64,000 nt of DNA, from contig NZ_CP058529.1 in assembly GCF_013401515.1 (NCBI RefSeq), positions 3,038,001-3,102,000 of the forward strand, read 5' to 3'. The translations under genes and the position numbers were made by a program. A model generated the notes under the pieces. The model did no database searches. It was not told the DNA's origin and worked only from the letters and a program-made list of their open reading frames with translations. Origin of the DNA: Halorarum halophilum (lineage in GTDB: Archaea > Halobacteriota > Halobacteria > Halobacteriales > Haloferacaceae). Positions 10,431 to 58,626 of this stretch are shown here, piece by piece (the stretch's first letter is position 1; each line of letters opens with the position of its first letter).

Positions 10431-10933
10431 ACAGGCAGGCCGCCCCCCAACCCCGTTCCCGCCTGCCGAACCAGTTCTGCCGGGTCACTCCGTCCGTTCC
10501 GGGGAAGACCTCCCGCCGAACCGTCCCGACCTCGCTTCGATCCCGACGAGCGACCCACAGCCCCCGCGTTTTCGTGCGAGTGCCCCCCTCGAGTCCCTGT
10601 CCCCGCCGGTTCCTGCGTTACGAACGGAGTTCCGGGATCGACGGGAGCAGGAGCGGCGACGAGGGAATGCTGGGAACGGGTTCGTAACCGACCCGCGTGT
10701 CGGGAACTGGCTCGCTCACGGCTCCTCCCTGCGGAAATCGGGACGGTGTCGTTCGAGCGTCCCCGTTTCCCCAGTCATCCTTACAAACATACGCTCGTAA
10801 TGACGGTCCGAACGACGGGATTCGAGTTCCCGTGTGGGGAACGGTCTTCCCCGCCTCGCGTGTCGGAGCCAGGAACGATCAGTCGGTAAGCAAAACTGTT
10901 ATGCTCCGCTCGGCGGACGTCGTTACCACCTCG
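10431..10933. other. intergenic region with duplicated-locus residue
   Basis: No gene is supported in these 503 bp. Bases 10452-10490 resemble the conserved block upstream of the IclR gene (26363-26447) and of the IclR remnant (58427-58508), sharing a CGTTCCCGCCT core. Farther right lie the 22-bp dyad (10780-10801) and a 17-bp palindrome (10826-10842), in the same order as in the 26 kb locus. The region therefore looks like a trace of the same duplicated module now acting as upstream DNA of the oxidoreductase at 10934. Confidence 0.45.
10780..10842. promoter_or_regulatory. 22-bp dyad plus 17-bp GTTCCC palindrome
   Basis: Bases 10780-10801 read CTTACA-N10-CGTAAT with a TAC at the centre, a copy of the RTTACR-N10-YGTAAY element. 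Bases 10826-10842 are GTTCCCGTGTGGGGAAC, a 17-bp site with perfect 6-bp arms. Both precede the Gfo/Idh gene at 10934 by 92-150 bp. The pairing repeats at 26540-26584, which supports a shared regulatory role. Confidence 0.55.
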
Positions 10934-14279: not shown

Positions 14280-14401
14280 TGGGTCGTCCCGTCGGCGATC
14301 GGTGTCTGTGACGAGCGGTTCGAATCACGGTGCGCGAGTGGTAGTGTGGGCGACCTGACGTGGCGTTTTCGAGCGGATGGGAAAATTCATTACGGTGGTC
14401 G

Positions 14402-14418
14402 CGAAACGCTTGTCTATC
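14402..14418 (+). promoter_or_regulatory. internal promoter before importer 1 permeases
   Basis: The sequence CGAAACGCTTGTCTATC just before the ATG at 14425 lines up with GAAACGTTTATACTATC before the paralogous permease at 48134. The shared spacing suggests that both permease-ATPase sets have their own promoter separate from the binding-protein gene. Here the TATA core is weaker (CTTGTCTAT). Confidence 0.4.
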
Positions 14419-14424
14419 AGTACC

Positions 14425-15429
14425 ATGGCAACGTTGGACTGGCGCATACGACGGATAGCGCAATCGGTGTTCACGGTGTGGGCGGTCCTCACGCTCTCGT
14501 TCGCCCTGATCCGCATGATGCCGGGGAACCCGATGGGGGCGATGGTCGCCCAACTGGAGAGCCAGGGGGTCGACCCGGTCCGCGCGCGACAGCTCGTCGA
14601 GCTCCGGATGAGCGTCGATCCGACCAAACCGATCCCGATCGCGTACGTCGAGTACATGGGCAGCATGCTCCAGGGCGATCTGGGGGTGTCGACCTACTAC
14701 GCCCAGCCGGTCGCCGAGATACTCGCGCAGGCGATGCCGTGGACGCTGTTCGTGTTGAGCTGGTCGCTGTTCATCAGCTTCTTCATCGGCATCTCCGTCG
14801 GGGCGCTGATGGCGTACTGGGAGGGCGGCAAACTCGACGTGGGGATGACCTCGTGGGCGATCCTCATGGGGTCGATCCCGTTCTACGTCATGGCGATCCT
14901 CCTGTTGATCTTCTGCTCGTACCGGTTCGGCTGGTTCCCGACCAGCGGCCGGGCGCCGACCGGCGTCCCCGCCGGCGTCAACTGGCCGTACATCAAGGGG
15001 ATCGTCCACCACGCGGCGCTTCCGGTCATGTCCATGCTGGTCGCATCCGGGATCGCCTCGCTCGGGATGCGCGGCAACAGCATCCGGGTTCTCGGGTCGG
15101 ACTACCTCAGGGTGGCCCACCTCCGTGGACTCTCGGACGTGACCATCTCGACCCAGTACGTCGCGCGCAACGCCGTGCTCCCGATGTACACGACGCTGCT
15201 CATCAGCATCGGCGAGATGTTCGGCGGCTCCATCGTCCTCGAGAAGGTGTTCCAGTACCAGGGGCTCGGCTACTACCTGTTCTCGGCGTTCAACCAGCGG
15301 GACTACCCGCTGATGATGGGGGGGTTCATGGTCATCACGGTGGCGGTCGTGATCGCATTACTACTCGCGGACATGACGTACGGGTTGGTCGACCCGCGCG
15401 CAGGAGGTCAGCACAGTGAAACGTACTGA
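14425..15429 (+). CDS. ABC transporter permease, DppB-type (1)
   Basis: A 334-residue inner-membrane permease of the oligopeptide/dipeptide importer family (BPD_transp_1). It has an N-terminal helix ending in ALIRMMPGNP, a periplasmic loop, and further membrane segments with the cytoplasmic EAA-type loop around VLGSDYLRVAHLRGLSD that contacts the ATPase. I start at 14425 by alignment with its paralogue at 48134; an in-frame Met 16 codons earlier is possible but would fall across the putative promoter. The next permease gene starts inside its 3' end, showing co-translation. Confidence 0.9.
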   Translation: MATLDWRIRRIAQSVFTVWAVLTLSFALIRMMPGNPMGAMVAQLESQGVDPVRARQLVELRMSVDPTKPIPIAYVEYMGSMLQGDLGVSTYYAQPVAEILAQAMPWTLFVLSWSLFISFFIGISVGALMAYWEGGKLDVGMTSWAILMGSIPFYVMAILLLIFCSYRFGWFPTSGRAPTGVPAGVNWPYIKGIVHHAALPVMSMLVASGIASLGMRGNSIRVLGSDYLRVAHLRGLSDVTISTQYVARNAVLPMYTTLLISIGEMFGGSIVLEKVFQYQGLGYYLFSAFNQRDYPLMMGGFMVITVAVVIALLLADMTYGLVDPRAGGQHSETY

Positions 15430-16555
15430 ATCGCCGTTCGACGACTGGGAGGGTAGGGAGGAAAGCGACGCCGACGGCTCGGCTGAAGACGGTGCCGGGG
15501 CCGACGGCGCGACAACTGGCGGCGACGCGATGGCCGACGGCGGCGCCGTCGGGTCGCCGTTCGAGGTCGTCTCCCAGTACGAGGAGACTCGACGCGACCG
15601 GTACCGGAAGCTGTTCGACGCGTACGTGTACGCCCCCATCTCCATCATCTGGCGCGACTGGCGCGCCCGGATCGGGTTCACCATCGTGCTAGCGTACGTG
15701 CTGATGGGCACCGTCGGAACGGTGATCGTCCCGCCGACGGAGGTGGTCGAGGGGCCGGCGCTCGCCCAGCCGTTCCAGCACTGGGAGTACCCGCTCGGCA
15801 CCGACGACATGGGTCGGGACCTGTTCGCACAGACGGTCCACGCGACACAGGAGATGCTGAAGATGATCACGGCGGGGGCGCTGTTCACCGTGACCATGGG
15901 GACGGTCGTGGGGGCGGTCGCCGGCTACAAGGGCGGGATGGTGGACACGGTGCTCAGTTCGATCACCGACATCTGCATCAACATCCCCGGGCTCCCGCTG
16001 GTGATGGTGCTCGTCCTGCTGCTCCCCATCGGGGGCAACCCGTACGTGATCGGAATCATACTGTGCATCGCGGCGTGGGGCGGGCTGGCACGGGCGATCC
16101 GGTCGCAGGTGCTCACGCTCCGCCAGGAGTCGTTCGTCGAGGCCTCGCGGGCGATGGGGATCCCCACCCGGAGGATCGTCTTCAAGGAGATCGTCCCGCA
16201 CCTGATGCCGTTCGTCGTCATCAACCTCACGAACGCCTCGCGCAGGGTCATCTTCGAGGCGGCGGCGCTGTACTACCTCGGCGTCCTGCCGTTCGAGGAC
16301 CTGAACTGGGGGGCCACTCTGAACCTCGCACAGACGGGCCAGGCCCACGTCCGGCCGCAGGCGCTCCACTGGTTCCTGGTGCCGATGGTGGCGATCATCT
16401 TCATCTCCATCGGGCTGATCCTGCTGGGGCAGTCGCTCGACCGGGTGTTCAACCCCCGAGTTCGGGCGCGACACGAGAAGACGACGTCCGACGCGGGCGA
16501 CGATGCCGAGGAGGAGAGTACGACCAACCCGGACGTGATGGGCGGAGGACTCTGA
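15416..16555 (+). CDS. ABC transporter permease, DppC-type (1)
   Basis: A 379-residue second permease of importer 1. It has an unusually long acidic N-terminal extension (about 65 residues, Asp/Gly/Ala-rich) before the first membrane helix, then the DppC pattern with YPLGTDDMGRD and an EAA loop in VEASRAMGIPTRRIVFKEI. It begins with GTG at 15416, overlapping the previous gene by 14 bases, and is preceded by a strong ribosome-binding site AGGAGGT at 15402-15408, unusual in an organism where most genes are leaderless. It partners with the permease at 14425 and the ATPase at 16560. Confidence 0.9.
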   Translation: MKRTESPFDDWEGREESDADGSAEDGAGADGATTGGDAMADGGAVGSPFEVVSQYEETRRDRYRKLFDAYVYAPISIIWRDWRARIGFTIVLAYVLMGTVGTVIVPPTEVVEGPALAQPFQHWEYPLGTDDMGRDLFAQTVHATQEMLKMITAGALFTVTMGTVVGAVAGYKGGMVDTVLSSITDICINIPGLPLVMVLVLLLPIGGNPYVIGIILCIAAWGGLARAIRSQVLTLRQESFVEASRAMGIPTRRIVFKEIVPHLMPFVVINLTNASRRVIFEAAALYYLGVLPFEDLNWGATLNLAQTGQAHVRPQALHWFLVPMVAIIFISIGLILLGQSLDRVFNPRVRARHEKTTSDAGDDAEEESTTNPDVMGGGL

Positions 16556-16559
16556 GACA

Positions 16560-18740
16560 ATGACCCTTTCAACGACCGAGTACGGAACCGAACGGGAGGT
16601 AGAGGATCCGATCATGCAGGTGCGCAACGCGTCGGTCACGTTCGACATGGAGCGGGGCGACTCGCGCGTGCTCGACGACGTCGACCTCGACATCCAGCGC
16701 AACGAGGTGCTCGGCGTCGTCGGGGAGAGCGGGAGCGGGAAGTCGATGCTCGCGTCCGGGCTGCTCGACGCCGTCGTCGACACCGGCGTGCTCACGGGCG
16801 AGCTCACGTACCGCCCGAAGGACGGGGAGCCGGTGGACGTGCTCGATCTTACGGACTCGGAGCTGAGGGAGTTCCGCTGGGAGCAGGTCTCGATGGTGTT
16901 CCAGGGCGCGATGAGCTCGTTCAACCCGGTGCGCGAGATCAGCACCCACTTCGTCGAGACCCTGAGCGCGCACGACTACAACGTCGACGAAGGGATGGAG
17001 CGGGCCGAACAGCTGCTCAGAGACCTGTATCTCGACCCCGATCGGGTGCTCAACTCGTACCCGCACGAGCTCAGCGGGGGGATGAAACAGCGGGCGCTAA
17101 TCGCGCTCAGCCTCATCCTCGAGCCGGAGGTGCTCGTGATGGACGAGCCGACGGCGGCGCTGGACCTGCTGATGCAGCGCTCGATCATCGCGCTGCTCGA
17201 GGACCTGAAGGACCAGTACGACCTGACCATCGTCTTCATCACCCACGACCTGCCCCTCATCGCCGACCTCGTCGACCGCATCGCGGTGATGTACGCGTTC
17301 GAGATCGCCGAACTCGGGCCGACGCGGGAGATCCTGGAGTTCCCCGCACACCCGTACACGCGGCTCCTATTGAAGTCGACGCCGAACCTCGGGTCGCCGA
17401 TCGAGGAGATGCGGCCGGTCGAGGGGAGCGCACCCGACCCGGTGAACGTCCCGTCGGGCTGTTCGTTCCACCCGCGCTGCCCGCTCTCGGACGAGACCTG
17501 CGAGATGCAGGATCCCGCGGCGTACCCGGTCGACGACGATCACCACGTCCACTGCCACCACTGGGAGGAGTCCGCCGAGGCGATCCCGATGGCCGACGAC
17601 GCCGCCTCGTCGGACGCGTTCGCCGACCACGACGTCGGGACGGCGACCGCCGTGGCCCGCGGCACGAACGAGCAACCGGTCGTGTCGCTCTCCGACCTCG
17701 AGGTCCACTTCGAGCAGGCGAAGGGGTTCCTCGACGTGTTCTCCTCGCCCGACACGGTCAAAGCGGTCGACGGCATCTCGCTGGACGTCTACGAGAACGA
17801 CGTGGTCGTCCTCGTCGGCGAGTCCGGGTGCGGGAAGACGACGCTCGGCAAGGCCGCCGTGGGGCTCCAGCGACCGACCGGCGGGAGCGTGGAGTACCGC
17901 GGCCACGACATCTGGGACGTGCGGGAATCGGGGAGCGACGACATGACGTGGGGGCAGATCCGGCGCTCGCTCCAGATCGTCCACCAGGACCCCGGCAGTT
18001 CGCTCAATCCCCACCGACGGATCAAGGCGAGCCTGCAGGAACCACTCAAGCGCTGGAACGCCGACCTCGACGGGAACGACCGGAAGCAGCGCATCCTCAG
18101 CCTGCTCGAACACGTCGGCATGTCGCCCGCGGAGGACTACTTCGAGCGCTACCCCCACCAGCTCTCGGGCGGCGAACAACAGCGCGTCGCGCTCATCCGC
18201 GCGATGCTGATGAACCCGGACCTCATCCTCGCGGACGAGCCGGTCTCTGCGCTGGACGTGAGCCTCCGGGTCGAGATGATGGACATGATGATCCAGCTCC
18301 AGGACGTGTTCGACACGTCGTACCTGTTCATCAGCCACGACCTCTCGAACGCCCGGTACATCGCGCAGCGGACCGGCGGCCGCATCGGCGTCGTCTACCT
18401 CGGCGAACTCGTCGAGATCGGCCCGCCCGAGCAGATCATCCACAACCCCCAGCACCCGTACACGCAGGCGCTCCGATGGGCGACCCCAGAACTCTCCGCC
18501 GAGGAGGCCGAGGGCGAGGTCGACGACTCCCCCATCCGGACGATCGACATCCCGGACCCGACGAACCCCCCGAGCGGGTGCCGGTACCACACCCGCTGTC
18601 CGGAGGCGCGGGAGGTATGTCGCACGACCGAACCGGAGTCGTACGGCGCGTCGGACGCGGACGACCACAGGGTCGCCTGCTTCCGCTCGGTCGACGACCA
18701 CGAGTACTGGAACAGCGAGTCCATCGTCGGCGACGACTGA
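16560..18740 (+). CDS. fused double ABC ATPase (DppD-DppF type)
   Basis: A 726-residue protein carrying two complete ATPase halves. Half 1: Walker [10 protein letters not shown] (about 55-63), signature [10 protein letters not shown], Walker [12 protein letters not shown], then the oligopeptide-type C-terminal region with CSFHPRCP. Half 2: Walker [10 protein letters not shown] (about 420-428), signature [11 protein letters not shown], Walker [12 protein letters not shown] and CRYHTRCP. A linker of about 40 residues joins them. It energises the importer formed with the two upstream permeases, starting four bases after the permease stop with GGAGGA upstream. In importer 2 the same two halves are separate, overlapping genes (50162, 51232). 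Confidence 0.92.
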
Positions 18741-18832
18741 GCGACGCTCCTTCCTCCTCCGTCGGCCATCGTAGTCCGGCCGGCCGACCCAAACGTTACG
18801 TGGTGTACCGTCGTGTGTGTCGCTAGCGCACG

Positions 18833-19966
18833 ATGGAGATCAGCGATATCGAGACGATCAGGTTCACGTACCGGTCGGGCAGGGTCCGCGATGGGAAGGG
18901 ACACTCCCACCCCGGAGCGCCGCACGAGACGGTCGGGAGCATCACCCGCGTCGTCGTCGACGGCGGCCCGGACGGCTACTGCACCGGCGGCGACAGACGG
19001 GCGAACGAACTGGCGGCGGAGTACCTCCGGGGGGAGGACCCCCTCGAACGCGAGCGGCTCTGGCAGCGGCTCAATCGGTCCCAGCGGCTCCACAAGGGGA
19101 CGTTCAGCGACTCGAACGTCTCCCGCATCGACTGCGCACTGTGGGACGTCGCCGGCAAGCACTTCGACGTGCCGGTGTACAGGCTGCTCGGGGGACACAG
19201 GGAGCACGTCCCCGCCTACGGCTCCACGATGGTCGGCGACGACGACCCCGACGGGCTGGGCACCCCGGAGGCGTACGCCGCGTTCGCGACCGACCTGCTC
19301 GATGAGGGGTACGGGGCCATCAAGCTCCACACGTGGATGCCGCCGTACGACGCCGACCCCGACCGCGTCGTCGAGGCGTGCCGGGCCGTCCGGGACGCAG
19401 TCGGGCCGGACGTGGAACTAATGCTCGATTCCCATCACTTCTACAGCCGAACGGAGGCGAAGCGGATCGGGCGGGCGCTGGCGGAACTCGACTTCAGGTG
19501 GTTCGAGGAGCCGATGGACGAGCACTCGATGTCCTCCTACGAGTGGCTCACGCGGAACGTCGACGTCCCGGTCGTGGGCCCGGAGACCGCGGAGGGGCAG
19601 ATGTACACCCGCGCCGAGTGGATCAAGCGCGGCATCGCGGACATCAGCCGGGTCGGCGTGGCCGACGTCGGCGGGCTCACCCCCGCGATCAAGACGGTCC
19701 ACCTCTGCGAGTCGTTCAACGTGCCGTGCGAGGTCCACGGCGGCAACGCGCCGAATCTCCACCTGCTCGGCGCGATGGCGAACCCGGGCGAGTACTACGA
19801 ACGCGGCCTGCTCCACCCGAAGTACGAGTACGACGAGGCGACCCCCTGGCTGACCGACCCCGTCGACCCCCTCGGCGAGGACGGCACCGTCCGCGTTCCC
19901 CAGGAGCCGGGACTCGGCTACTCGTTCGACTGGGACTTCGTCGAGGCGAACCGCGTCGAGAACTGA
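18833..19966 (+). CDS. enolase-superfamily sugar-acid dehydratase (MR/MLE), KxH type (1)
   Basis: A 377-residue member of the mandelate racemase/muconate-lactonizing group, which abstract a proton next to a carboxylate with Mg2+ help, usually to dehydrate sugar acids. Capping domain 1-120 with IDCALWDVAGK; barrel motifs KLHTW (Lys about 163), LMLDSHHF (metal Asp about 199), WFEEPMDE and VGPETAEG (metal Glu), and EVHGGNAPN. The usual K-x-K is K-x-His here, so exact chemistry is uncertain. It follows importer 1 on the same strand. A close paralogue follows importer 2 at 52689, indicating module duplication. Confidence 0.85.
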   Translation: MEISDIETIRFTYRSGRVRDGKGHSHPGAPHETVGSITRVVVDGGPDGYCTGGDRRANELAAEYLRGEDPLERERLWQRLNRSQRLHKGTFSDSNVSRIDCALWDVAGKHFDVPVYRLLGGHREHVPAYGSTMVGDDDPDGLGTPEAYAAFATDLLDEGYGAIKLHTWMPPYDADPDRVVEACRAVRDAVGPDVELMLDSHHFYSRTEAKRIGRALAELDFRWFEEPMDEHSMSSYEWLTRNVDVPVVGPETAEGQMYTRAEWIKRGIADISRVGVADVGGLTPAIKTVHLCESFNVPCEVHGGNAPNLHLLGAMANPGEYYERGLLHPKYEYDEATPWLTDPVDPLGEDGTVRVPQEPGLGYSFDWDFVEANRVEN

Positions 19967-25449: not shown

Positions 25450-26223
25450 TCAGGAGAACTTCGTGTTGAGCTCGATGACGTTCGCCGCCCGGCGGACGTA
25501 GTCGGAGAGCACGTCGTGGAAGCGGTCGTTCGTGAACCGGCTCGACGGCCCGGACACGCTAATCGCCCCCAGCACCTTCTCGCCGTTCTTGACGGGGGCG
25601 GAGACGCACCGGAGCCCCTCGATGTTCTCCTCGTCGTCGATCCCGTACCCGCGCTCGGCCGTCACCTCGAGTTCCTCGTAGAGCTCCTCGCGCGTCGTGA
25701 TCGTCTTGGGCGTCATCCTCGTCAGCTCGGTCGACTCGACGATCTCCTCGCGGCGCTCCGCCGGGAGGAACGCGAGAATCGTCTTCCCCAGCGAGGTGGA
25801 GTGGATCGGCTGCTGGGTTCCGATCCTGGAGGCCGTCTCGACCGCCCGGTCGCCCGTCGCCTTGCAGAGGTAGGAGATGCGACCGTGTTCCTCGATCCCG
25901 AACTGGGCGATCTCGCCGGTCTCCTCCGCCAGCGACTCGACTTCGTCCTGGATGACGTCATGGTTACCGACCTGTTCGCGGACGTGCGTCGCCATGTCGA
26001 GGATGCGGAGGCTCAGTCGATAGCTGTCCCCCTCGCGGACCAGGATCTCCCGCTCCTCTAGCGTCCGGAGGTGGCTGTGGATCGTGCTCTTCGAGTGTCC
26101 CAGCTCGCTCGCGAGTTCGGTCACCCCGATGTCGTCCCGCTCCTGGAGGACGTCGATGATGTTGAAGGCGATCTTCACCGACCGGATCGTTCGGCCCGAC
26201 GCGGGTCCCGCTTGCTCTGTCAT
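25450..26223 (-). CDS. IclR-family transcriptional regulator (1)
   Basis: A 257-residue regulator: N-terminal winged helix-turn-helix (about 18-80; IIDVLQERDDIGVTELASELG, then SKSTIHSHLRTLEE as recognition region) and a C-terminal IclR effector domain (GYGIDDEENIEGLRCVSAP, ISVSGPSS). Haloarchaeal IclR proteins control pentose and hexose pathways. It begins at 26223, 25-31 bases after a TTTATGT box, with a perfect 17-bp palindrome (26257-26273) touching the upstream side of that box, suggesting autoregulation. Two decayed copies of the gene lie at 32948-33225 and 58183-58262; a more distant IclR protein is at 34831. Confidence 0.93.
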   Translation of the reverse strand: MTEQAGPASGRTIRSVKIAFNIIDVLQERDDIGVTELASELGHSKSTIHSHLRTLEEREILVREGDSYRLSLRILDMATHVREQVGNHDVIQDEVESLAEETGEIAQFGIEEHGRISYLCKATGDRAVETASRIGTQQPIHSTSLGKTILAFLPAERREEIVESTELTRMTPKTITTREELYEELEVTAERGYGIDDEENIEGLRCVSAPVKNGEKVLGAISVSGPSSRFTNDRFHDVLSDYVRRAANVIELNTKFS

Positions 26224-26247
26224 ACCAGTGTAGCACACCCCATACCA

Positions 26248-26273
26248 CATAAACCTGTTCCCATGAGGGGAAC
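26248..26273 (-). promoter_or_regulatory. IclR promoter with GTTCCC-N5-GGGAAC operator
   Basis: On the minus strand TTTATGT (26248-26254) is the TATA box of the IclR gene. Immediately upstream, overlapping the expected TFB-recognition element, is GTTCCCATGAGGGGAAC (26257-26273), with perfect 6-bp arms. The same 17-bp form occurs at 10826 and 26568, with imperfect copies at 33270 and 33410. Position against the promoter fits an autoregulatory site. Confidence 0.65.
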
Positions 26274-26705
26274 GGGCGTCGGGCGCCTCGGGTGAACGGC
26301 CCCGGAGAGAACTACGAACGGGTGAGCCCTAACGACCGTCGGGGGACGGACGTCACCCCCTGGACCGTCGGAACGCCCCGGCCGTCCGTTCCCACCTCGC
26401 GAACGAATCGGCGGGTCGTTTCACGCCGATTCCGCTGACGACGGCGGGGATCGCCGTTTCGGATGTGGAGGGGAACGACGCCACGGACGCTGCCGAGCGA
26501 CCTCGAACTAGGTCCGCCTGGTGGCCATCGGAGCCTCGAATTACAAGAGTACGACTGTAATCTATCTGTTCCCCGGTGGGGAACACGTGGCGGTAAAACC
26601 CCCGAACTATCGAGTTCATGCGTCACAGTCCGTGACCGTCCCACGGACGGGGATGGCTGTCGGACCGAACGTTTTTGCCGGCCGGCCGAGAGTCCTACCC
26701 ATATC
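26274..26705. other. IclR-ThuA divergent region with conserved block
   Basis: No gene is supported. Bases 26363-26447 align with 58427-58508 (for example the shared CCGTCGGAACG start and CGTTCCC core), marking the two halves of a segmental duplication. A GGGATCGCCGTTT run at 26447-26459 recurs upstream of the decayed IclR copy near 33427-33439. Two dyads follow at 26540-26584. A CGTTTTTGCC stretch near 26670 precedes the small coding frame at 26706. Confidence 0.5.
26540..26584. promoter_or_regulatory. 22-bp dyad plus 17-bp GTTCCC palindrome
   Basis: Bases 26540-26561 form ATTACA-N10-TGTAAT with GTAC exactly at the centre, the most symmetrical copy of the 22-bp element. Six bases later, 26568-26584 is GTTCCCCGGTGGGGAAC with 7-bp arms. 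They lie between the divergent IclR and ThuA genes. Co-occurrence with the pair at 10780-10842 argues for paired regulator sites. Confidence 0.6.
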
Positions 26706-33493: not shown

Positions 33494-33515
33494 ATTACAA
33501 CACTACTACTGTAAC
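33494..33515. promoter_or_regulatory. 22-bp RTTACR-N10-YGTAAY dyad
   Basis: ATTACA-N10-TGTAAC, with CTACTAC inside the spacer exactly as in the copy at 34705. It sits 24 bases after the GC hairpin and upstream of the possible ThuA debris, so its place in the decayed module equals that of the copy at 26540. Confidence 0.55.
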
Positions 33516-33892: not shown

Positions 33893-34564
33893 ATGCGAAC
33901 GTACGAAGTGCGGTACGAACCGGACGGCGTCCAGCTGTCGGGCGAGGTGAACGGAACCGCCTGGGACCGGGCGAAGGCCGGCGAGATCGACCGGTTCTCG
34001 TGGTCGGACGACGGGGATGGGCCCGGAACGGTCGTCCGCGCACTCCACGACGAGGACGCGCTGTTCCTGCAGTTCCAGGTCGAGGACCGTGAGATGCGCG
34101 CGGAGGTGACCGAACTCAACGGCCCGACGTTCGAGGACAGTTCGGTCGAGTTCTTCGCCACCCCCGGCCCGGATGCCGAGGGGAAGTACCTCAACTTCGA
34201 GGCCAACTGCTGCGGGACGTTCAAACTGGGGTGGCAGGAGCCGGCGTGGCGGGAGCGGGGAGTCGGTCGCGACCTCGTGTCGCCGATGCTCGCCGGGGAG
34301 ATCGACGTCGAGACGTCCGTGCCCGGTCCGACCAGAACGCCGTCGGAGGACGACAACGGGTGGTGGTTGGCCGTACGCATTCCGGAGGCGACTCTCCAGT
34401 CGTTCACCGGTCGACCGGTGTCGATAGCGCACGACGCCGTCTGGCGGGGGAACTTCTACCGGAGCGGCGTCCCGGACCACCGAAAGGCGACGTGGAACCC
34501 GCTTCCGACGCCGACACCGGAGTACCACTCCCCGGAGCACTTCGGCCGGATACGGTTCGAGTGA
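33893..34564 (+). CDS. CBM9-like carbohydrate-binding domain protein
   Basis: A 223-residue protein that consists of one carbohydrate-binding module family 9-like beta-sandwich. Characteristic stretches are DEDALFLQFQVED (about 58-70), DSSVEFFATPGPD (about 86-98), YLNFEANCCG and WWLAVRIPEATL; family 9 modules bind sugar-chain ends. There is no signal peptide, so as a stand-alone cytoplasmic protein its role is unclear. ATG 33893 is supported by a CTTAAGG element about 28 bases upstream (33862-33868). It is convergent with the IclR gene at 34831. Confidence 0.75.
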   Translation: MRTYEVRYEPDGVQLSGEVNGTAWDRAKAGEIDRFSWSDDGDGPGTVVRALHDEDALFLQFQVEDREMRAEVTELNGPTFEDSSVEFFATPGPDAEGKYLNFEANCCGTFKLGWQEPAWRERGVGRDLVSPMLAGEIDVETSVPGPTRTPSEDDNGWWLAVRIPEATLQSFTGRPVSIAHDAVWRGNFYRSGVPDHRKATWNPLPTPTPEYHSPEHFGRIRFE

Positions 34565-34704: not shown

Positions 34705-34726
34705 ATTACGGGTCTACTACTGTAAC
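34705..34726. promoter_or_regulatory. 22-bp RTTACR-N10-YGTAAY dyad
   Basis: ATTACG-N10-TGTAAC with the same CTACTACTGTAAC right half as the copy at 33494. It lies between two convergent genes (CBM9-like ending at 34564 and IclR ending at 34831), where a promoter operator is not expected. That placement suggests either a recombination scar or control of an unseen transcript. Confidence 0.5.
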
Positions 34727-34830: not shown

Positions 34831-35595
34831 TCAGGAGTAGGTCATGTTGACCTCGATGACGTTCGCCGCGCTCTGGACCTGGCGCGGGATGTCGTTCTCG
34901 TACCGGTCGTCGTGCATCCGGCTCATCGGGCCCGAAACGCTCACCGCGCCGAGAATCTCGTCGTTGCGGTCGAGGATCGGCGCGGCAATGCAGCGCATAC
35001 CCTCGATGCGCTCCTCGTCGTCCGTGGCGTACCCCCGTTCCCGAATCTCGGCAAGCTGGTCGGAGAGCGTCTCCCGGTCCGTGATCGTCTTCCTGGTCAC
35101 CTTCGGCAGTCCCCGCTCGGAAATGATACGGTCGACTTCCGACTGGGGCATGTGAGCGAGGATCGCCTTCCCCATGGCGGCAGTCTGGAGCGGGACGCGC
35201 ATTCCGGGTCGGGTGTCGAGCGTGACGGCGTCCTCCCCCTTGGCCTTGTACAGGAAGATACCGAGGCCGTGCTCTTCGATCATGAGGTTGGCGTGCTCGC
35301 CCGTCTCGTCGGCGAGGCGGTTGATGACCGGCCGCGCCACGCGATACACCTTCATGTTCTCCCGCGCGTAGCCGCCGTACTCCAGGAACCGCGTGCCAAT
35401 CCGGTAGCCGTCGGGGGCTTTCACGACGAACTCGAGTTCGACGAGCGTACTGAGGTGATCGTGTGCGGTGCTCTTGGGCACGCCGACGTGGTCGGCAACC
35501 TCCGCGATACTGGGCCGGTCGAGCTGTTTGAGCGCCTCGACGATCGCGAACGTCGTTCCGGCCGATTTCACCCGGAGCGGGTCTGACACCGTCAT
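34831..35595 (-). CDS. IclR-family transcriptional regulator (2)
   Basis: A 254-residue IclR regulator, clearly different from the one at 25450. The N-terminal winged HTH spans about 10-75 (PSIAEVADHVGVPKSTAHDHL), the C-terminal effector domain includes GYATDDEERIEGMRCIAAP and VSVSGPMS. Start 35595 is set by a minus-strand CGTTTATGC box at 35619-35627 and by homology; the longer frame upstream overlaps this box. It stands beside the rhamnose gene set (35944-42171) and is the natural candidate to regulate it, perhaps through the direct repeats at 35666-35715. Confidence 0.92.
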   Translation of the reverse strand: MTVSDPLRVKSAGTTFAIVEALKQLDRPSIAEVADHVGVPKSTAHDHLSTLVELEFVVKAPDGYRIGTRFLEYGGYARENMKVYRVARPVINRLADETGEHANLMIEEHGLGIFLYKAKGEDAVTLDTRPGMRVPLQTAAMGKAILAHMPQSEVDRIISERGLPKVTRKTITDRETLSDQLAEIRERGYATDDEERIEGMRCIAAPILDRNDEILGAVSVSGPMSRMHDDRYENDIPRQVQSAANVIEVNMTYS

Positions 35596-46241: not shown

Positions 46242-48071
46242 ATGGCAAAAAGGAGTTTGAGCCGTTGGAGCAGACGAGACTTCGTAAAGTACGGCGCCGT
46301 CGCGGGCAGTGCGGGTCTGGCGGGTTGTTTTAGCGAATCGGAGACCACGCCGACGGGCGATACGGGCGGCGACGGGAGCGACGGAGGGAGCGGAGTAGCG
46401 GACGACACGCTCGACTTCCCCGCCGGACGGCCGCCGACCGACGTCCAGTTCAACAGGTACAGCCTGGGGAACTACGCCCACACGCTGCAGGACCAACTGT
46501 TCGAGCAAGTCGCCAGAGGGTACGCGGACGGGTCGGTCCGGCCGGACCTCCTCGAGGAGATGACCGTGGACGGCAGGACGCTCACGCTGAAGTTCCCGAA
46601 GAACTTCAAGTGGTGGAACGGCGACGACCTGACGGCCGAGGACTACTTCGTCGGCCTCGAGATCGACAGGCTCCAACAGCCCGAGAAGTCCACCATCGAG
46701 AGCAACGAGCTGGTCGACGACTACACCATCGAGCGGACGTTCAAGAACGCCGTCGCGCCGAACCTGATGAAGGCGGACGTCGCGGAGACGTTCGTCAACA
46801 CGCCGCGATCCGTCTACAAAGAGTACCTCACGAAACTGCAGGACGCCGCCGACCAGGGCGAACGCGACGCGGTGACCGAGGAACTGCTGAACCTGAAGAT
46901 AACGACCCAGCAGCTGATCGACGAGGGACTCGGCAACGGCCTGTACCAGGTCACCGGGTTCAACTCCTCGGAGACGAAGCTGAAGAAGTTCGAGGACCAC
47001 CCGTACGCGGACCGAACGGACATCCCGAAGGCGCGGATCATCCCTGAGACGGCGGCCGACGTGGACTCGCTCGCAGTGAACAACAAGGTCGACATGAACC
47101 CCGACGTCCTCATGTCGAAGTCCCAGCGGGGTTCCTACCCGGAGAACCTGCAGAACGTCTACCGCCTCAACTGGTTCCGGACGCAGAAGTTCACCTTCAA
47201 CTTCAAGAACGAACACCTCGCGAAGCTCCCCGTCCGGCGGGCCATCGCCCACGCGGTGGACCTCGAGTCGATGGTCGCCGCGATGCGACAGGCCGGAACC
47301 GTCGGCAAGCCGCCGAAGAAGCAGACCGCGCTCCGATCGACCATCCACGACAAGTACCTCGGCTCGGACTTCGTCGACAAACTCATCGACTACCCGACGT
47401 CGAAGGACGTCGAGGGCGCGACCGCGCTGATGGAGGAGGCCGGGTACACCAAGAAGAACGGAAACTGGGTGGACCCCGACGGGAAGCAGTTCACGTTCAA
47501 CGTCCTGACCTCGAACGAGAACATCCAGGTGCAGGCGACGAAGGTGTTCAACGACCAGTTGAACTCCTTCGGCCTCCAGACGAAGATCAGCACCGTCAGT
47601 TCCTCGGACTACTACCAGCGTCTCCAGACGTACCAGGCCGACATCTTCTGGATCTGGCACGTCGCGAAGGCGTTGTGGCACCCCACGGCGTACTTCTCGA
47701 ACAACTTCTACGGCATCGAAGTCGGCGACCCGTCCAGCGGGGACGCCGGCCCGACCGGGAAGCCGTTCACGACGACCATTCCGAGCGAAGTCGGCGCGAA
47801 GGAGGTTCAGGGCGGCGGAACGGAGATCCAGCCCGCGAAGCTGATGAACGAACTGCCGTCGTCGGAGTCCAAGAAGGAGGTCAAAGAGAACACCAGAAAG
47901 CTCGTCCAGTGGTTCAACTACGCGCTTCCCGACCTCGTGTTCGTCGAGGAGGACTCGGGGTACTGGGGCGACGTCGAGGACTTCTCGATGCCGGCCGAGG
48001 GCGACCAGGAGCTCAACACGAACCGACCCGGCCAGTTCTCGTTCAAGAACGGGTGGATCAGCTCGAAGTAA
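46242..48071 (+). CDS. ABC transporter substrate-binding lipoprotein, family 5 (2)
   Basis: A 609-residue SBP_bac_5 binding protein. The Tat motif is SRRDFVK (10-16) and the lipobox ends AGLAGC (Cys29); a Gly/Ser/Asp linker follows before the mature domain near residue 55. It is clearly more distant from the protein at 12104 than their downstream permeases are from each other, suggesting different ligands. TATTTATAGG at 46206-46215 is a strong TATA box in a locally AT-rich stretch, centred about 31 bases before the ATG. Genes 48134-52308 supply the membrane and ATPase parts. Confidence 0.9.
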   Translation: MAKRSLSRWSRRDFVKYGAVAGSAGLAGCFSESETTPTGDTGGDGSDGGSGVADDTLDFPAGRPPTDVQFNRYSLGNYAHTLQDQLFEQVARGYADGSVRPDLLEEMTVDGRTLTLKFPKNFKWWNGDDLTAEDYFVGLEIDRLQQPEKSTIESNELVDDYTIERTFKNAVAPNLMKADVAETFVNTPRSVYKEYLTKLQDAADQGERDAVTEELLNLKITTQQLIDEGLGNGLYQVTGFNSSETKLKKFEDHPYADRTDIPKARIIPETAADVDSLAVNNKVDMNPDVLMSKSQRGSYPENLQNVYRLNWFRTQKFTFNFKNEHLAKLPVRRAIAHAVDLESMVAAMRQAGTVGKPPKKQTALRSTIHDKYLGSDFVDKLIDYPTSKDVEGATALMEEAGYTKKNGNWVDPDGKQFTFNVLTSNENIQVQATKVFNDQLNSFGLQTKISTVSSSDYYQRLQTYQADIFWIWHVAKALWHPTAYFSNNFYGIEVGDPSSGDAGPTGKPFTTTIPSEVGAKEVQGGGTEIQPAKLMNELPSSESKKEVKENTRKLVQWFNYALPDLVFVEEDSGYWGDVEDFSMPAEGDQELNTNRPGQFSFKNGWISSK

Positions 48072-48103
48072 GTCCCTCGCGACGGAGGCCTCGCAATGAA
48101 ACG

Positions 48104-48111
48104 TTTATACT
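48104..48111 (+). promoter_or_regulatory. internal promoter before importer 2 permeases
   Basis: TTTATACT is centred 26 bases before the GTG at 48134, so the permease-ATPase genes can be transcribed leaderless and independently of the binding-protein gene that ends at 48071. The equivalent sequence before the importer 1 permease is at 14402-14418. Confidence 0.6.
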
Positions 48112-48133
48112 ATCGTGCGGGAGATGCTAACCC

Positions 48134-49141
48134 GTGACGCCACGATACCTGTTGAAGCGACTCGGACAAGCATTGTTGACGTTCTTCGTCACAATCACGG
48201 TATCGTTCGGGCTGTATCAGGCGATGCCGGGCGGTCCGACGGAGGCGATGAAGAGCGTCATCCTCTCACAGAGCGGTTCGACCGGTATGGACATCGACCG
48301 CCTGAACACGCTGATTCAACTGTACACGAACGTGAACCCGGATCAACCGGTCCACGTGCAGTACCTGAACTACGTCAGGGACGTGGTACTGTACCAGGAC
48401 CTCGGTCGGTCGTTCTTCAAGAACGAGAAGGTCACGACGCTCATCCTCCAGCGGCTGCCGTGGTCGATGTTCATCAGCCTGTACGCGTTCGCCCTCGGAT
48501 ACTCGCTCAGCATCATCCTCGGCGTGCTGACCGCGTACAAGGAGAAGTCGCGGTTCGACTCCGGCGTCTCCTCCGTCGTCATCGCGCTCAACTCCATCCC
48601 CTACTACATCGTGGGCGTCGTGCTCATCTACTTCCTCGCGATCGAGCAGTCGTACTTCCCCGTCGGGGGCCGAATTGGCTCGGGAGTCCCGGTGGGGTAC
48701 AACCCAGACTTCATGATCAGCCTCGTCAAGCATGCCGCGCTTCCGGCCATCTCGATGGGAGTGCTCGCCACGTCAGCCGCCCTCTCGATGCGCGGGAACG
48801 CGATACGGATCCTCGGCGAGGACTACGTCCGCGTCGCGCAACTTCGCGGCCTCCGCGACACGAGAATCGCGACGCAGTACCTCGGGCACAACGCGATACT
48901 GCCGATGTACACGCAGTTCATGATCGGTATCGCGGGCGTGTTCAGCAGCGCCGTCATCGTCGAGGAGGTGTTCTCCTACCCCGGGATGGGACTGCTGATG
49001 TTCGAGGCGGTGAAGACCCAGGACTACCCGCTGTTGATGGGGACGCTCATCGTCTTCACGGCCATCTCGCTGACGGCCATCTTCGTCGCCGACCTCACGT
49101 ACAGCCTCATCGACCCACGAATCTCGGTTGACGAGTCATGA
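48134..49141 (+). CDS. ABC transporter permease, DppB-type (2)
   Basis: A 335-residue permease, paralogue of the gene at 14425 and alignable along its length: an N-terminal helix ending GLYQAMPGGP, a periplasmic loop, and the cytoplasmic coupling segment ILGEDYVRVAQLRGLRD that docks on the ATPase. It begins with GTG at 48134, 22-30 bases from the internal TATA box. The next permease gene overlaps its stop codon by four bases (ATGA), showing tight coupling. Confidence 0.9.
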   Translation: MTPRYLLKRLGQALLTFFVTITVSFGLYQAMPGGPTEAMKSVILSQSGSTGMDIDRLNTLIQLYTNVNPDQPVHVQYLNYVRDVVLYQDLGRSFFKNEKVTTLILQRLPWSMFISLYAFALGYSLSIILGVLTAYKEKSRFDSGVSSVVIALNSIPYYIVGVVLIYFLAIEQSYFPVGGRIGSGVPVGYNPDFMISLVKHAALPAISMGVLATSAALSMRGNAIRILGEDYVRVAQLRGLRDTRIATQYLGHNAILPMYTQFMIGIAGVFSSAVIVEEVFSYPGMGLLMFEAVKTQDYPLLMGTLIVFTAISLTAIFVADLTYSLIDPRISVDES

Positions 49142-50145
49142 GTAACCCCGAATCAGACACCTTCGACCTACAGAACCTCTACGACGAGAGCAGCGACCAC
49201 GAACCCGAATCCAGGAAGGTTCGGCTCAAGCGAGCGATAGACCTGAACGCGCTGGCGCCCGCCCGGGTGGCCAGCGACGACTGGCGCGCCCTCCTCGGCG
49301 GCGCCATCCTGGCGGTGTTCGTCCTCATGGGAACCGTCGGCGTCGCCCTCGTGGACAAGCCGACGAGCGGCGACGCGCCGGTCCTCGCGGCCCCGTTCCA
49401 GGCGCTCGCGTACCCCTTCGGGACGGACGTGTTCGGCCAGCCGATCCACGCCCAACTCATCCACGCGACGCCCGGCATCTTCAAGATGATATTCGCCGGG
49501 GCCGTCGTCAGCGTCGGGTTCGCGGCCGTCGTCGGCGTCCTCTCCGGGTTCAAACACGGCGAGCGCATCGACACGATACTGATGACGTTCACGGACGTCG
49601 TCATCACGATCCCCGGGCTTCCGCTCATCATCGTCATCACGGCGATCTTCCAGCCGGAGAACCCCTACCTCGTCGGCGTCTTCCTCGGCATCGACAACTG
49701 GCCGGGGCTCGCCCGGACGGTCCGGTCGCAGGTGCTCAGCATCCGCGAGGAGTCGTACGTCGAGGCGTCGGAGATCATGGGGATTCCGCTCTCGACGATT
49801 CTCCGCCGGGACATCCTCTCGCAGCTCATGCCGTACGTGATGATCAACGGCGCGATCACGTCGCGACGCATCATCTTCGAGTCCGTCGGGCTCTACTTCC
49901 TCGGCATCCTGCCGTTCACCACGTTCAACTGGGGCGTGATGATGAACCTGGCCTACGAGGGGAACGCGCTGACGCGGCCGGAGATGCTGCACTGGATGGT
50001 GTTCCCGATGCTCTGCATCTTCCTCCTGTCGTTCAGCCTCGTCCTCCTCTCGCAGGGACTCGACAGCCTGTTCAACGTCCGCCTCCGCGCCCGGCACGCG
50101 AACACGACCAAGAAGGACGCATCGCACACCAGCCAAAGCGACTGA
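49138..50145 (+). CDS. ABC transporter permease, DppC-type (2)
   Basis: A 335-residue permease paired with the preceding one. It has a short polar N-terminus (about 40 residues, much shorter than in the importer 1 paralogue), YPFGTDVFGQ in the first periplasmic segment and the coupling loop VEASEIMGIPLSTILRRDI. The ATG overlaps the upstream stop (ATGA). Seventeen bases separate it from the next ATPase gene. The short N-terminus shows that the acidic extension at 15416 is an addition, not a family feature. Confidence 0.9.
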   Translation: MSNPESDTFDLQNLYDESSDHEPESRKVRLKRAIDLNALAPARVASDDWRALLGGAILAVFVLMGTVGVALVDKPTSGDAPVLAAPFQALAYPFGTDVFGQPIHAQLIHATPGIFKMIFAGAVVSVGFAAVVGVLSGFKHGERIDTILMTFTDVVITIPGLPLIIVITAIFQPENPYLVGVFLGIDNWPGLARTVRSQVLSIREESYVEASEIMGIPLSTILRRDILSQLMPYVMINGAITSRRIIFESVGLYFLGILPFTTFNWGVMMNLAYEGNALTRPEMLHWMVFPMLCIFLLSFSLVLLSQGLDSLFNVRLRARHANTTKKDASHTSQSD

Positions 50146-50161
50146 CCGAGAAGGTAAGACA

Positions 50162-51235
50162 ATGAACTCGACACTCGATACGGAAACCGGGACGGACGAC
50201 GCGGCGCGGGACGAATCGGAGGTGGTGTTCGAAGTGCGGGACCTCGAGGTCACCTTCGGCACCAACCGTGGCGAGTCGAAGGTGGTTCGCGACGTCGACC
50301 TCGACATCCACCGCAACGAGACGCTCGGCATCGTCGGCGAGAGCGGGAGCGGAAAGTCGATGCTGTCGTCGACGCTGCTCAACGCCGTCGTGGACCCCGG
50401 CGAGACCAGCGGCGAGGTGACGTACTACCCGCCCGACGGCGGCGACCCGATCTCGGTGCTCGACCTCTCCGAGAGCGAACTGAAGGAGTTTCGCTGGGAG
50501 GAGGTGGCGATGGTGTTCCAGGGCGCGATGAGCTCGTTCAACCCGGTCAAGCGGGTTCGCGGCCACTTCTCAGAAACGTTGGAGGACCACAACCGTGACG
50601 TCGACGCCGGAATGGACCGGGCGCGCGGAATCCTCGAGGACCTCTACCTCGACCCCGACCGCGTCCTCAACGCGTACCCGTACGAGCTCAGCGGGGGGAT
50701 GAAACAGCGCGCGCTCATCGCGCTCGGGCTCGTCCTGGAGCCGGAGGTGCTGGTGATGGACGAACCGACGGCGGCGCTGGACCTACTGATGCAGCGCTCC
50801 ATCATCTCCCTGCTTCGCGACCTCAAGGAGGAGTACGACCTGACCATCATCTTCATCACCCACGACCTGCCGCTGTTGACCAAGCTCGCGGACCGACTCG
50901 CGGTGATGTACGCGTTCGACATCGTGGAGGTGGGCGACACGGAGGAGATACTGTACCACGCGGCGCACCCGTACACCCGGATGCTCCTGCAGGCGACGCC
51001 GGACCTGAACGTCCCCGTCGAGGAGATGCGGTCCGTCGAGGGGAACAAGCCGGACCCTGTCATCAGGATTCCCGGTTGTTCCTACCACCCGCGCTGTCCC
51101 ATGGCTGACGAGTCGTGCACGCAGGCGGAACCGCCGATGGTGATGCGGTCGCCGGGCCACCGAACCGCCTGCTTCTACCACGACGACGTGGACGAAGCGA
51201 TGCCGCTCCGGAGCGACGGGGAGGGCCGACGATGA
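50162..51235 (+). CDS. ABC transporter ATPase, DppD-type
   Basis: A 357-residue ATPase equivalent to the first half of the fused protein at 16560. Walker A is GESGSGKSM, the signature [10 protein letters not shown] and Walker [12 protein letters not shown]; the oligopeptide-type C-terminal region with CSYHPRCP is present, with clustered cysteines of the kind thought to bind iron-sulfur or metal. Its stop overlaps the start of the second ATPase (ATGA at 51232-51235). It works with the permeases at 48134 and 49138. Confidence 0.92.
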   Translation: MNSTLDTETGTDDAARDESEVVFEVRDLEVTFGTNRGESKVVRDVDLDIHRNETLGIVGESGSGKSMLSSTLLNAVVDPGETSGEVTYYPPDGGDPISVLDLSESELKEFRWEEVAMVFQGAMSSFNPVKRVRGHFSETLEDHNRDVDAGMDRARGILEDLYLDPDRVLNAYPYELSGGMKQRALIALGLVLEPEVLVMDEPTAALDLLMQRSIISLLRDLKEEYDLTIIFITHDLPLLTKLADRLAVMYAFDIVEVGDTEEILYHAAHPYTRMLLQATPDLNVPVEEMRSVEGNKPDPVIRIPGCSYHPRCPMADESCTQAEPPMVMRSPGHRTACFYHDDVDEAMPLRSDGEGRR

Positions 51236-52308
51236 GCTCCGACTCCTCGGTCGTCTCCGTCGACGACGTGTCGGTCCACTTCACGAACAACGGCGGGCTC
51301 CTCGACCTGTTCTCCGAGAACGAGACCGTCCGCGCCGTCGACGGCATCTCGCTCGACATCGGCGAGAACGACGTGGTCGCGCTCATCGGCGAGAGCGGAT
51401 GCGGGAAATCGACGCTCGGGAAGGCCATCATCGGCGCGGAGCGCCCGACGTCGGGGACGGTCACGTTCCGCGGTCAGGACATCTGGGAGGCCCGCGACGA
51501 ACGTGATCCGGAGATACCCTTCTCCGAGATCAGGCGCTCGCTCCAGATCATCCACCAGGACCCCGGCAGCGCGCTGAACCCGAATCAGCGCCTGTTGACC
51601 TCCCTGATGCTCCCGATGAAGAAGTGGTACCCCGACCTGAGCCGCGAACGGCGCAAGGAGCCCATCCTCGCGCTCCTCGAGAAGGTCGGACTGTCGCCCG
51701 CGGAGGACTTCGTCAACCGCTTCCCGCACCAGCTGAGCGGGGGCGAACAACAGCGGGTGGTCCTCGTCCGGTCGCTCCTCTCGAATCCGGACCTGATCCT
51801 GGCCGACGAGGCCATCAGCGCGCTCGACGTGAGCCTCCGGGTCGAGATGATGGACCTCATGCTCGAACTGCAGGAGCTGTTCGGCACGTCGTACCTGTTC
51901 ATCAGCCACGACCTCTCGAACGCCCGGTACCTCGCGGAGAAGGCCGGCGGGCGAATCGCCGTGATGTACCTCGGGAGGATCGTCGAGGTCGGTCCGATAG
52001 AGCAGGTGATAGAGAACCCACAACATCCCTACACGAAGGCGCTGAAGTGGGCAACCCCCAACCTGTACGGCGACGAGGGCGAGGAGGAGCTCCCCGTCCG
52101 AGAGATAGACATCCCGGACCCGGTCGACCGTCCGTCCGGGTGCCACTTCCACCCCCGGTGTCCGAAGGCACGAGAGATCTGCCGCACGCGGGATCCGGAC
52201 CTCATCACCACGGACGACGGCCACGGCGCCCGATGCTACCGGGCGGACGAGTCCCACGAGTACTGGGACAGTCAGAGCATCGTCGACGACGAGGGCGAAC
52301 TCCGGTAG
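51232..52308 (+). CDS. ABC transporter ATPase, DppF-type
   Basis: A 358-residue ATPase equivalent to the second half of the fused protein at 16560. Walker A GESGCGKST, signature [11 protein letters not shown], Walker B LILADEAISAL (an Ala replaces the usual Pro after Glu), and C-terminal CHFHPRCP. The two halves end alike (HEYWDSQSIVDDE here, [13 protein letters not shown] in the fusion), showing common origin. The ATG at 51232 is chosen because of the four-base overlap with the upstream stop. Confidence 0.92.
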   Translation: MSSDSSVVSVDDVSVHFTNNGGLLDLFSENETVRAVDGISLDIGENDVVALIGESGCGKSTLGKAIIGAERPTSGTVTFRGQDIWEARDERDPEIPFSEIRRSLQIIHQDPGSALNPNQRLLTSLMLPMKKWYPDLSRERRKEPILALLEKVGLSPAEDFVNRFPHQLSGGEQQRVVLVRSLLSNPDLILADEAISALDVSLRVEMMDLMLELQELFGTSYLFISHDLSNARYLAEKAGGRIAVMYLGRIVEVGPIEQVIENPQHPYTKALKWATPNLYGDEGEEELPVREIDIPDPVDRPSGCHFHPRCPKAREICRTRDPDLITTDDGHGARCYRADESHEYWDSQSIVDDEGELR

Positions 52309-52355
52309 TCCGAACAGCATCTATTTGTGAGTGGCTGTCTAACGCTCGGGATACC

Positions 52356-52577
52356 ATGGCCGTCGAGACGTCTCCCAGGTCGCGACCCCTGACCGCGCTA
52401 TCGGAACACAAACTGTTCGTCGGTGCGGTCGCCGCCGGGGCCCTGATGATCCTGCTCGCACGGTTCGTGCTGGAGGGCGTCATCGCCGGAATGTTCGGCG
52501 TGTGGGGTATCTCGCTCGTCCTCGTCAGCGTCGGATCCTTCCTCTTCCTGTGGGCGTGGGGCGCCTACAACCGCTGA
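52356..52577 (+). CDS. small two-helix membrane protein
   Basis: A 73-residue protein: polar N-terminus, hydrophobic helix about 23-42, second helix about 46-68, ending AYNR. CTATTTGTG at 52321-52329 is a plausible TATA box about 30 bases before ATG 52356. Its second half resembles the protein at 20530 (WGISLVLVSVGSF against WGTALVLFGVTTY). It directly follows the importer 2 ATPases, completing the parallel with importer 1. Function unknown. Confidence 0.65.
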   Translation: MAVETSPRSRPLTALSEHKLFVGAVAAGALMILLARFVLEGVIAGMFGVWGISLVLVSVGSFLFLWAWGAYNR

Positions 52578-52688
52578 CGAGGGGGAACGGAGGAGGCGCC
52601 GGCCGCGGAGTCGGACGGGTCGCAGTATCGGGAAGCGGGGAGGGTTCGGAAGGCGGGTTCGCGTTCCCGGTCGGTGGCGTCCGCGGGG

Positions 52689-53819
52689 TCAGTCCAGGCG
52701 GTTCTCCTCGACGAAGTCCCAGTCGAACTCGTACCCGAGACCGGGCGACTGCGGCATCTCGACCACGCCCTCGTCGTCGATCTCGTCGGGGAGTTCCTCC
52801 AGTTCGGGGAAGTACGTCGCGTAGTCGTGCTTCGGGTGGAGCAGCCCGCGTTCGTAGTACCGGCCGGGGAACGCCATCGTTCCGAGCAGGTGGAGATTCG
52901 GCGCGTCGCGGCCGTGTATCTCGCACTCGACGTTGAACGACTCGCAGAGGCCGATTGCCTTCAGCGCGGGGGTGATGCCGCCCACGTCGAAGACGCCGAC
53001 GCGGACGATGTCCGCGATATCCCGCTTGATCCACTCGGCGCGGGTGTGCATCCGGCCTTCCGCGGTCTCCGGGCCGACGACGGCGATGTCGAGTTCGTTC
53101 GACAGCCACTCGTAGGAGGACATCGAGTGCTCGTCCATCGGCTCCTCGATCCAGCGGAAGTCGAGTTCTTCGAGGGCCCGGCCTATCTTCTTGGCCTCGG
53201 AACGACTGTAGAAGTGGTGCGCGTCGAGCATCAGGTCTACGTCCGGCCCGACCGCGTCGCGGACGGCCCGGCACGCCTCGATGTCGCGGTCTGGACTCTC
53301 GCCGAACGGCGGCATCCACGTGTGGAGTTTGACCGCCCGGTACCCCTCCTCGACGAGCGCTGTGGCGAAGTCGGCGTACGCCTCGGGCGTCCCGAGTCCC
53401 TCCGGGTCGTCATCGCCGACCATCGTACTTCCGTAGGCCGGAACGTCGTCGCGCGCCGCGCCGACGAGTTGGTAGACCGGCAGGTCCGCGTGCTTGCCCG
53501 CGACGTCCCAGAGGGCGCAGTCGATCGGAGCCACGCGCTTGTCGGTGAGCGTGCCCTTGTTCAACCGCTCGGCGCGACTGAGTCGCTGCCACAGCTCCTC
53601 GCGGTAGAGGGGGTTCTCCCCGACGAGGTGGCGTTTCGCGAGCTCGTTCGATCGCTCGTGTCCGCCGCGGCAGTAGCCGTCCGGGCCGCCGTCGACGACG
53701 ACGTGCGTTATCGTCCCCGTCGCGTCGGTTGGGGGGCCCGGGTGGCCGTGGCCCTTCTCGTCGGCTTCGACGTGAGCGGTGTAGCGGAACCGAATGGTAC
53801 GGACGTCGGTGATCTCCAT
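52689..53819 (-). CDS. enolase-superfamily sugar-acid dehydratase (MR/MLE), KxH type (2)
   Basis: A 376-residue close paralogue of the gene at 18833: both share PIDCALWDVAGKH-like text, VPAYGSTMVGDDDP, KLHTWMPP, MLDAHHFYSRSEAK, EEPMDEHSMSSYEWL and GPETAEGRM as separate matching stretches. The K-x-His variation is kept, so it marks a real subgroup. The enzyme probably dehydrates a sugar acid derived from what importer 2 brings in. Start 53819 lies 28-34 bases from a minus-strand TTTATTA box (53847-53853); the longer frame upstream is rejected. Confidence 0.86.
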   Translation of the reverse strand: MEITDVRTIRFRYTAHVEADEKGHGHPGPPTDATGTITHVVVDGGPDGYCRGGHERSNELAKRHLVGENPLYREELWQRLSRAERLNKGTLTDKRVAPIDCALWDVAGKHADLPVYQLVGAARDDVPAYGSTMVGDDDPEGLGTPEAYADFATALVEEGYRAVKLHTWMPPFGESPDRDIEACRAVRDAVGPDVDLMLDAHHFYSRSEAKKIGRALEELDFRWIEEPMDEHSMSSYEWLSNELDIAVVGPETAEGRMHTRAEWIKRDIADIVRVGVFDVGGITPALKAIGLCESFNVECEIHGRDAPNLHLLGTMAFPGRYYERGLLHPKHDYATYFPELEELPDEIDDEGVVEMPQSPGLGYEFDWDFVEENRLD

Positions 53820-58603: not shown

Positions 58604-58626
58604 GTTACGTTCGTACTATTTGTAAC
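58604..58626. promoter_or_regulatory. 22-bp dyad variant (23 bp)
   Basis: GTTACG-N11-TGTAAC keeps both half-sites and the central TACTA but has one extra base in the spacer. It lies between the IclR and ThuA remnants, at the place that corresponds to the copy at 26540. The extra base suggests it may no longer be bound. Confidence 0.45.

Follow-up and report, generated by a model that had tools for sequence, protein, structure and literature searches.

A recurrent dyad at iclR loci of Halorarum halophilum is a predicted binding site of RdfA, the neighbour of an archaea-specific SMC-related protein

A 64-kb stretch of the Halorarum halophilum genome (C1:3038001-3102000, here called the window; the genome has 4.28 Mb in four contigs) contains several copies of a 22-bp palindrome, which raises the question of which protein reads this element and what it does at these loci. 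The initial annotation had listed five copies of the pattern RTTACR-N10-YGTAAY and had proposed that they are either the operator of an island-specific regulator, possibly IclR, or a mark left by the recombination that copied these segments. We re-examined the copies in the window, in the whole genome and in about 150 relatives.

Three of the five listed copies (26540, 33494 and 34705) matched the pattern without mismatches, and the copy at 10780 deviated only in the first base (C instead of R). The fifth one, a 23-bp element at 58604, has a spacing of 13 between the half-sites and belongs to a class that, like the spacing-14 control, has no conserved centre; it was discarded because of its spacing. 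A weaker match at 6689 was discarded because of its score (4.9, compared to 21-35 for true sites). With TTAC and GTAA as half-sites, the window contains four matches at spacing 12, one at spacing 13 and none at spacings 7-11 and 14-19. When two mismatches to the original pattern were allowed, 8 matches were found in the window, while 7.0 were expected, i.e., there was no enrichment. Since the loose pattern occurs at chance level and the exact dyad does not, the signal lies in the exact dyad with its TA centre rather than in a degenerate form. All four remaining sites possess the half-sites TNACR and YGTNA (20 bp in all) with TA in the centre, and the axis of the 26540 copy is GTAC.

The 10780 dyad is intergenic, and a Gfo/Idh/MocA oxidoreductase gene starts 100 bp downstream of it (at 10901). 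The 26540 dyad is flanked by an iclR gene (start at 26250 or 26178) and a ThuA gene (26939), whereas the 33494 dyad lies in the intergenic region between a KdgD/DHDPS-like gene and the gene for a CBM9-domain protein. The 34705 dyad had been described as lying between convergent genes, and this was correct: the CBM9 gene and an iclR gene converge on it, with the stop codon of the latter ~105 bp away. The product of this iclR gene is 63% identical to its Haladaptatus halobius counterpart.

Table 1 Features of the window. The form of a dyad is named after the second base of its half-site
Feature	Position	Strand	Remarks
RdfA-type dyad CTTACAAACATACGCTCGTAAT	10780..10801	.	T form, score 26.7; predicted site
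RdfA-type dyad ATTACAAGAGTACGACTGTAAT	26540..26561	.	T form, score 32.9; predicted site
RdfA-type dyad ATTACAACACTACTACTGTAAC	33494..33515	.	T form, score 29.4; predicted site
RdfA-type dyad ATTACGGGTCTACTACTGTAAC	34705..34726	.	T form, score 23.6; predicted site
iclR gene	25450..26250	-	PF09339 + PF01614; linked to the 26540 site
iclR gene	34831..35595	-	254 aa; linked to the 34705 and 33494 sites
CBM9-domain protein gene	33893..34564	+	Pfam PF16011; convergent with iclR
Paralogous blocks	15655-19832 and 49278-53763		all dyad copies >4 kb from block edges
Second palindrome	10455, 10609, 10826, 26257, 26388, 26568, 33270, 58319		GTTC-N9-GAAC

The second palindrome listed in the table, GTTC-N9-GAAC (often GTTCS-N7-SGAAC), is found in the dyad-bearing intergenic regions. 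In many genomes, it is enriched around RdfA sites, by a factor of about 4. It is possibly an operator of IclR or of another regulator. The GTTCS-N7-SGAAC form is unspecific, with 154 matches genome-wide.

In the complete genome, the motif could be refined to TTACR-N4-TA-N4-YGTAA, with TA exactly in the centre. There are 23 exact copies of it, and none of the reversed-pattern control. A genome-wide scan at spacing 12 gave 24 matches, all with TA at positions 10-11, and position 5 is A in 21 of them, position 16 T in 19; at spacing 13 only 6 matches without a conserved centre were found, as many as in the spacing-14 control. The 22-base palindrome repeated in this genome is thus a real dyad. It is present at no fewer than 20 loci on all four replicons, and the idea of an island-specific element had to be given up.

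Of these 24 sites, 14 are located at most 3 kb from a gene for an IclR-type helix-turn-helix protein, compared to 0.66 expected and a maximum of 5 in 5000 random draws. Viewed from the genes, 13 of the 17 full iclR genes of the genome have an exact dyad within 3 kb, and 15 when one-mismatch copies are counted. The motif was detected in 36 of 59 genomes of the order and is almost absent from genomes without iclR, so that both the association with IclR loci and the conservation in relatives were borne out by the scans of the genome and of the relatives. Genomes with more iclR genes also have more sites (rho 0.89), and therefore iclR loci are the main targets.

We further analyzed the placement of 108 distinct sites from H. 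halophilum and other genomes, at loci that were partly picked for sites or iclR genes. The sequence of these loci is 72% coding, but only one of the sites is located within a called gene. The neighbouring genes are convergent at 27 sites, divergent at 24 and in tandem at 46, and 11 sites begin 1-13 bp past an iclR stop codon. This placement at the 3' end of iclR recurs in many genomes, and the 34705 dyad is one example of it. Sites are not confined to promoters and do occur between convergent genes, which does not correspond to a promoter operator; since convergent settings are as frequent as divergent ones, promoter control does not account for the sites in general. In one genus (g12; loci L098, L099, L101, L106 and L107), an orthologous iclR gene stands beside a CitE-like/glyoxalase cluster, and the dyad is kept 1-12 bp past its stop codon while the convergent neighbour gene varies.

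Could the dyads have been left behind when island segments were copied, by recombination or by a mobile element? Their concentration in accessory regions and plasmids would be consistent with this. However, no copy is found at a duplication breakpoint, the distance to the edges of the paralogous blocks ruling this out, and a strict dyad with matched T, A and G forms at unrelated loci is not what a recombination mark would look like. We regard this explanation as having practically no chance of being right. The window contains two paralogous ABC-transporter blocks (14346-19966 and 46242-53819) with 72-89% DNA identity, in which an 810-bp part is inverted.

The proximity of the sites to iclR genes, their number and their frequent start just past an iclR stop codon initially favoured IclR as the binder, with each dyad being the operator of an IclR regulator (an XacR/GacR/MscR-like activator) near its own gene. 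Site-marked iclR genes do belong to the haloarchaeal activator family of XacR, GacR, RhcR and MscR (PMC11519228), but the IclRs studied here do not co-vary with the dyad. In related genomes the motif is switched to TAACA..TGTTA, or rarely to TGACA..TGTCA, at all their loci together, and a genome-wide scan revealed mostly one form per genome, with some mixed genomes. In one genus (g6), with as many as 17 iclR genes, TTACA sites are almost absent; its iclR loci carry RTAACA-N4-TA-N4-TGTTAY, with 11 matches to TAAC-N12-GTTA in 16 loci and at most one match at each other spacing. The recognition helices of IclR are nevertheless alike in the form groups (KSTVHNHLQTL type), and orthologous IclRs that are 73% and 69% identical and share the same recognition helix carry different site forms. 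It is hard to explain how 17 paralogues would switch form together, and one shared factor is simpler. Moreover, sites are not restricted to loci with iclR: rdfA-sph loci of Haloferax mediterranei and H. larsenii carry sites, too, and lack an iclR gene within 20-25 kb, and conversely an RdfA-less genome with three iclR genes has a single site. IclR was therefore dropped as the candidate. It is probably not the binder, judging from these sequence comparisons, and we consider the operator explanation very unlikely.

The sites also adjoin genes for ASRP, an archaea-specific SMC-related protein (NF045487), whose neighbour is RdfA (PF21811); they are often located exactly in the rdfA-asrp junction and otherwise beside the operon. 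In the alignment segment D-F-V-[ST]-X1-Q-A-I-X2 of RdfA, the residues X1 and X2 vary with the site form. In the discovery set, RdfA has H,H or H,Y where the site is of the T form, Y,R where it is of the A form and R,H where it is of the G form (TGACA..TGTCA; three loci), in agreement for all 26 labelled loci. The follow-up set comprised 80 loci, a few of them from species of the discovery set, and was collected with a pattern that allowed H, Y or R: proteins with H or Y as X2 corresponded to 52 T-form and no A-form loci, and those with R to 12 A-form and no T-form loci. An informative case among the latter is an H,R protein, whose site has the A form. When all labelled loci are considered, X2 separates T from A in 94 of 94 cases (G form, 3 of 3), and it is the only alignment column with full information on this distinction.

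The same relationship was found when whole genomes were compared. The 20 genomes with only T-type RdfA have 150 T and 2 A sites, the 12 with only A-type RdfA have 1 T and 26 A sites, and the 14 with both types have 107 T and 37 A sites. Two genomes with Y,N-type RdfA (G003, G021) have 22 A and no T sites, and 10 genomes without RdfA have 2 sites in all. In H. halophilum, with an HH-type RdfA on plasmid C2 and a YR-type RdfA on C3, there are 23 T and 3 A sites, and the T form of the window sites matches the resident HH protein. Named plasmids gave the same picture: for Haloferax mediterranei (RdfA SHQAIH), all 11 sites are T. Haloarcula marismortui pNG700, with TYQAIR in its RdfA, has A in 8 of 9 sites; the ninth is an imperfect dyad, and there is no symmetric T site. 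As a point against RdfA, no T- or A-form dyad was found in two genomes (G008, G024) that have YR-type RdfA, ASRP and 4 iclR genes each. RdfA copy number was rejected as a predictor of site number, with a rho of 0.13 within RdfA-positive genomes. The genes iclR and rdfA occur together in 48 genomes and are both missing in 9, with one discordant genome each way (Fisher 8e-9, phylogeny ignored). Three tandem dyads with a 34-bp period and the forms A, T and A are located at ~149.3 kb of contig C3 (L040:4999, 5033, 5067), upstream of an iclR gene that adjoins the A-type rdfA-asrp pair.

In an RdfA tree computed after removal of the helix columns, 7 changes each were found for site form and X2, and the best tree contains 6 independent pairs, all concordant, but its well-supported branches force only one T/A switch. 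Shared ancestry thus inflates the locus counts and explains some of the correlation with the residues. More independent support comes from the mixed genomes, from the H,R protein and from the G form. The match between residues and site form across loci and genomes fits RdfA, and not IclR, as the reader of the dyad.

An AlphaFold model of RdfA built from 47 sequences (pLDDT 90.6) has a helix at 101-107, a turn and a second helix at 111-121. X1 (residue 111) and X2 (residue 115) lie where the second helix begins and are separated by one turn, which in this model would place them where a helix-turn-helix contacts bases. The CxxC..CxC pattern at the C-terminus suggests a zinc ribbon. A PDB sequence search with RdfA (E<=1) gave no match, and fold searches (Foldseek, VIA-align) gave weak matches only, with no clear relative; the similarity to sigma region 4 (6vvv_F) comprised only 43 residues (1.5 A, Z 3.8) and was not taken as evidence. 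The P-loop of ASRP reads GRNATNRTS in 77 and GKNATNRTS in 11 of 88 sequences (e.g., L034:4853-6805), i.e., arginine stands at the position of the usual Walker-A lysine.

Taken together, the best explanation of the whole, and in our opinion a very probable one, is that the dyads are RdfA-binding sites, which probably serve to nucleate RdfA-Sph at accessory catabolic loci. The motif, its targets and the residue match emerge from sequence comparison, and we strongly infer from them that RdfA binds the dyad. RdfA, a small haloarchaeal protein with a predicted helix-turn-helix and zinc ribbon encoded beside the SMC-like ASRP/Sph, would act as a symmetric dimer reading TNACR on both sides of the central TA. 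X1 and X2 would jointly set the second base of the half-site: H with H or Y for T, Y or H with R for A, and R with H for G. The C2 protein would then pair with T-form sites, among them all four of the window, and the C3 protein with the three A-form sites. Putative RdfA sites mark almost every iclR gene as well as the rdfA-sph operons. In bacteria, ParB-parS with SMC and MatP-matS with MukBEF combine a sequence-specific protein, a short dyad and an SMC-type ATPase at scattered sites. The proposed RdfA-dyad pair with its SMC-type partner and scattered sites resembles them, and by this analogy RdfA most likely nucleates Sph at the dyads, with the accessory catabolic loci being organised or damped, and possibly silenced, insulated or gathered, as the presumed outcome. 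The system differs from the bacterial ones in that its sites are at catabolic-regulator loci and not around the origin or terminus, and RdfA has no sequence similarity to any solved structure.

Since rdfA is paired with sph and the sites ignore promoters, RdfA probably nucleates Sph, although this conclusion is weaker than that of binding: we give recruitment of Sph slightly better than an even chance, and an effect of the sites on expression is evenly balanced. RdfA could also bind the dyads as an ordinary transcription factor, with its SMC-like neighbour acting elsewhere, e.g., as a cytoskeletal coiled-coil protein. Sites 100-500 bp upstream of iclR starts and beside the rdfA operon would fit regulation of iclR and of rdfA itself, and Sph3 has been proposed to be cytoskeleton-like (PMC10869688). 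Yet the balance of convergent and divergent sites and their frequent position straight after stop codons do not suit promoter operators, and rdfA and sph are tightly linked, being adjacent in 42/54 (PMC10869688). This alternative is less likely than not, but it has to be reckoned with.

RdfA and Sph3 of Haloferax volcanii (HVO_2174 and HVO_2175) are required for rod shape and motility; RdfA has been described as a cell-shape factor whose function is unknown, and a cytoskeletal role has been considered possible for Sph3 (PMC10869688). The proteins studied here belong to the same families (PF21811 and ASRP NF045487) and their genes are likewise adjacent. We found no report in the open-access literature on DNA binding, a site or a target set of RdfA. 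Sph is a member of the same archaea-specific SMC-related family as the coalescin ClsN of Sulfolobus, which marks the low-expression B compartment (PMC9389158, PMC9764264). These papers describe no sequence-specific targeting factor for ClsN, whereas Sph would have such a partner, with its own sites. It is conceivable, though we rate it somewhat below even, that RdfA and Sph form an SMC system of the coalescin type that is guided by sequence. RdfA dimers at the dyads, with their residue-to-base code, would place Sph on plasmids and at all iclR-type catabolic loci, and the system would gather or silence accessory genes and link carbon regulation to cell shape.

RdfA, a conserved haloarchaeal family, thereby gains a proposed molecular activity: it would bind specific DNA sequences according to a simple residue-to-base code, and this code would predict RdfA sites in any haloarchaeal genome. 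It also provides a candidate mechanism by which an archaea-specific SMC-related protein would be targeted; coalescin, the best-studied protein of this family, forms repressive chromosome compartments. The switch between rod and disk shape would also be tied to the loci of carbon-source regulators (IclR, sugar metabolism).
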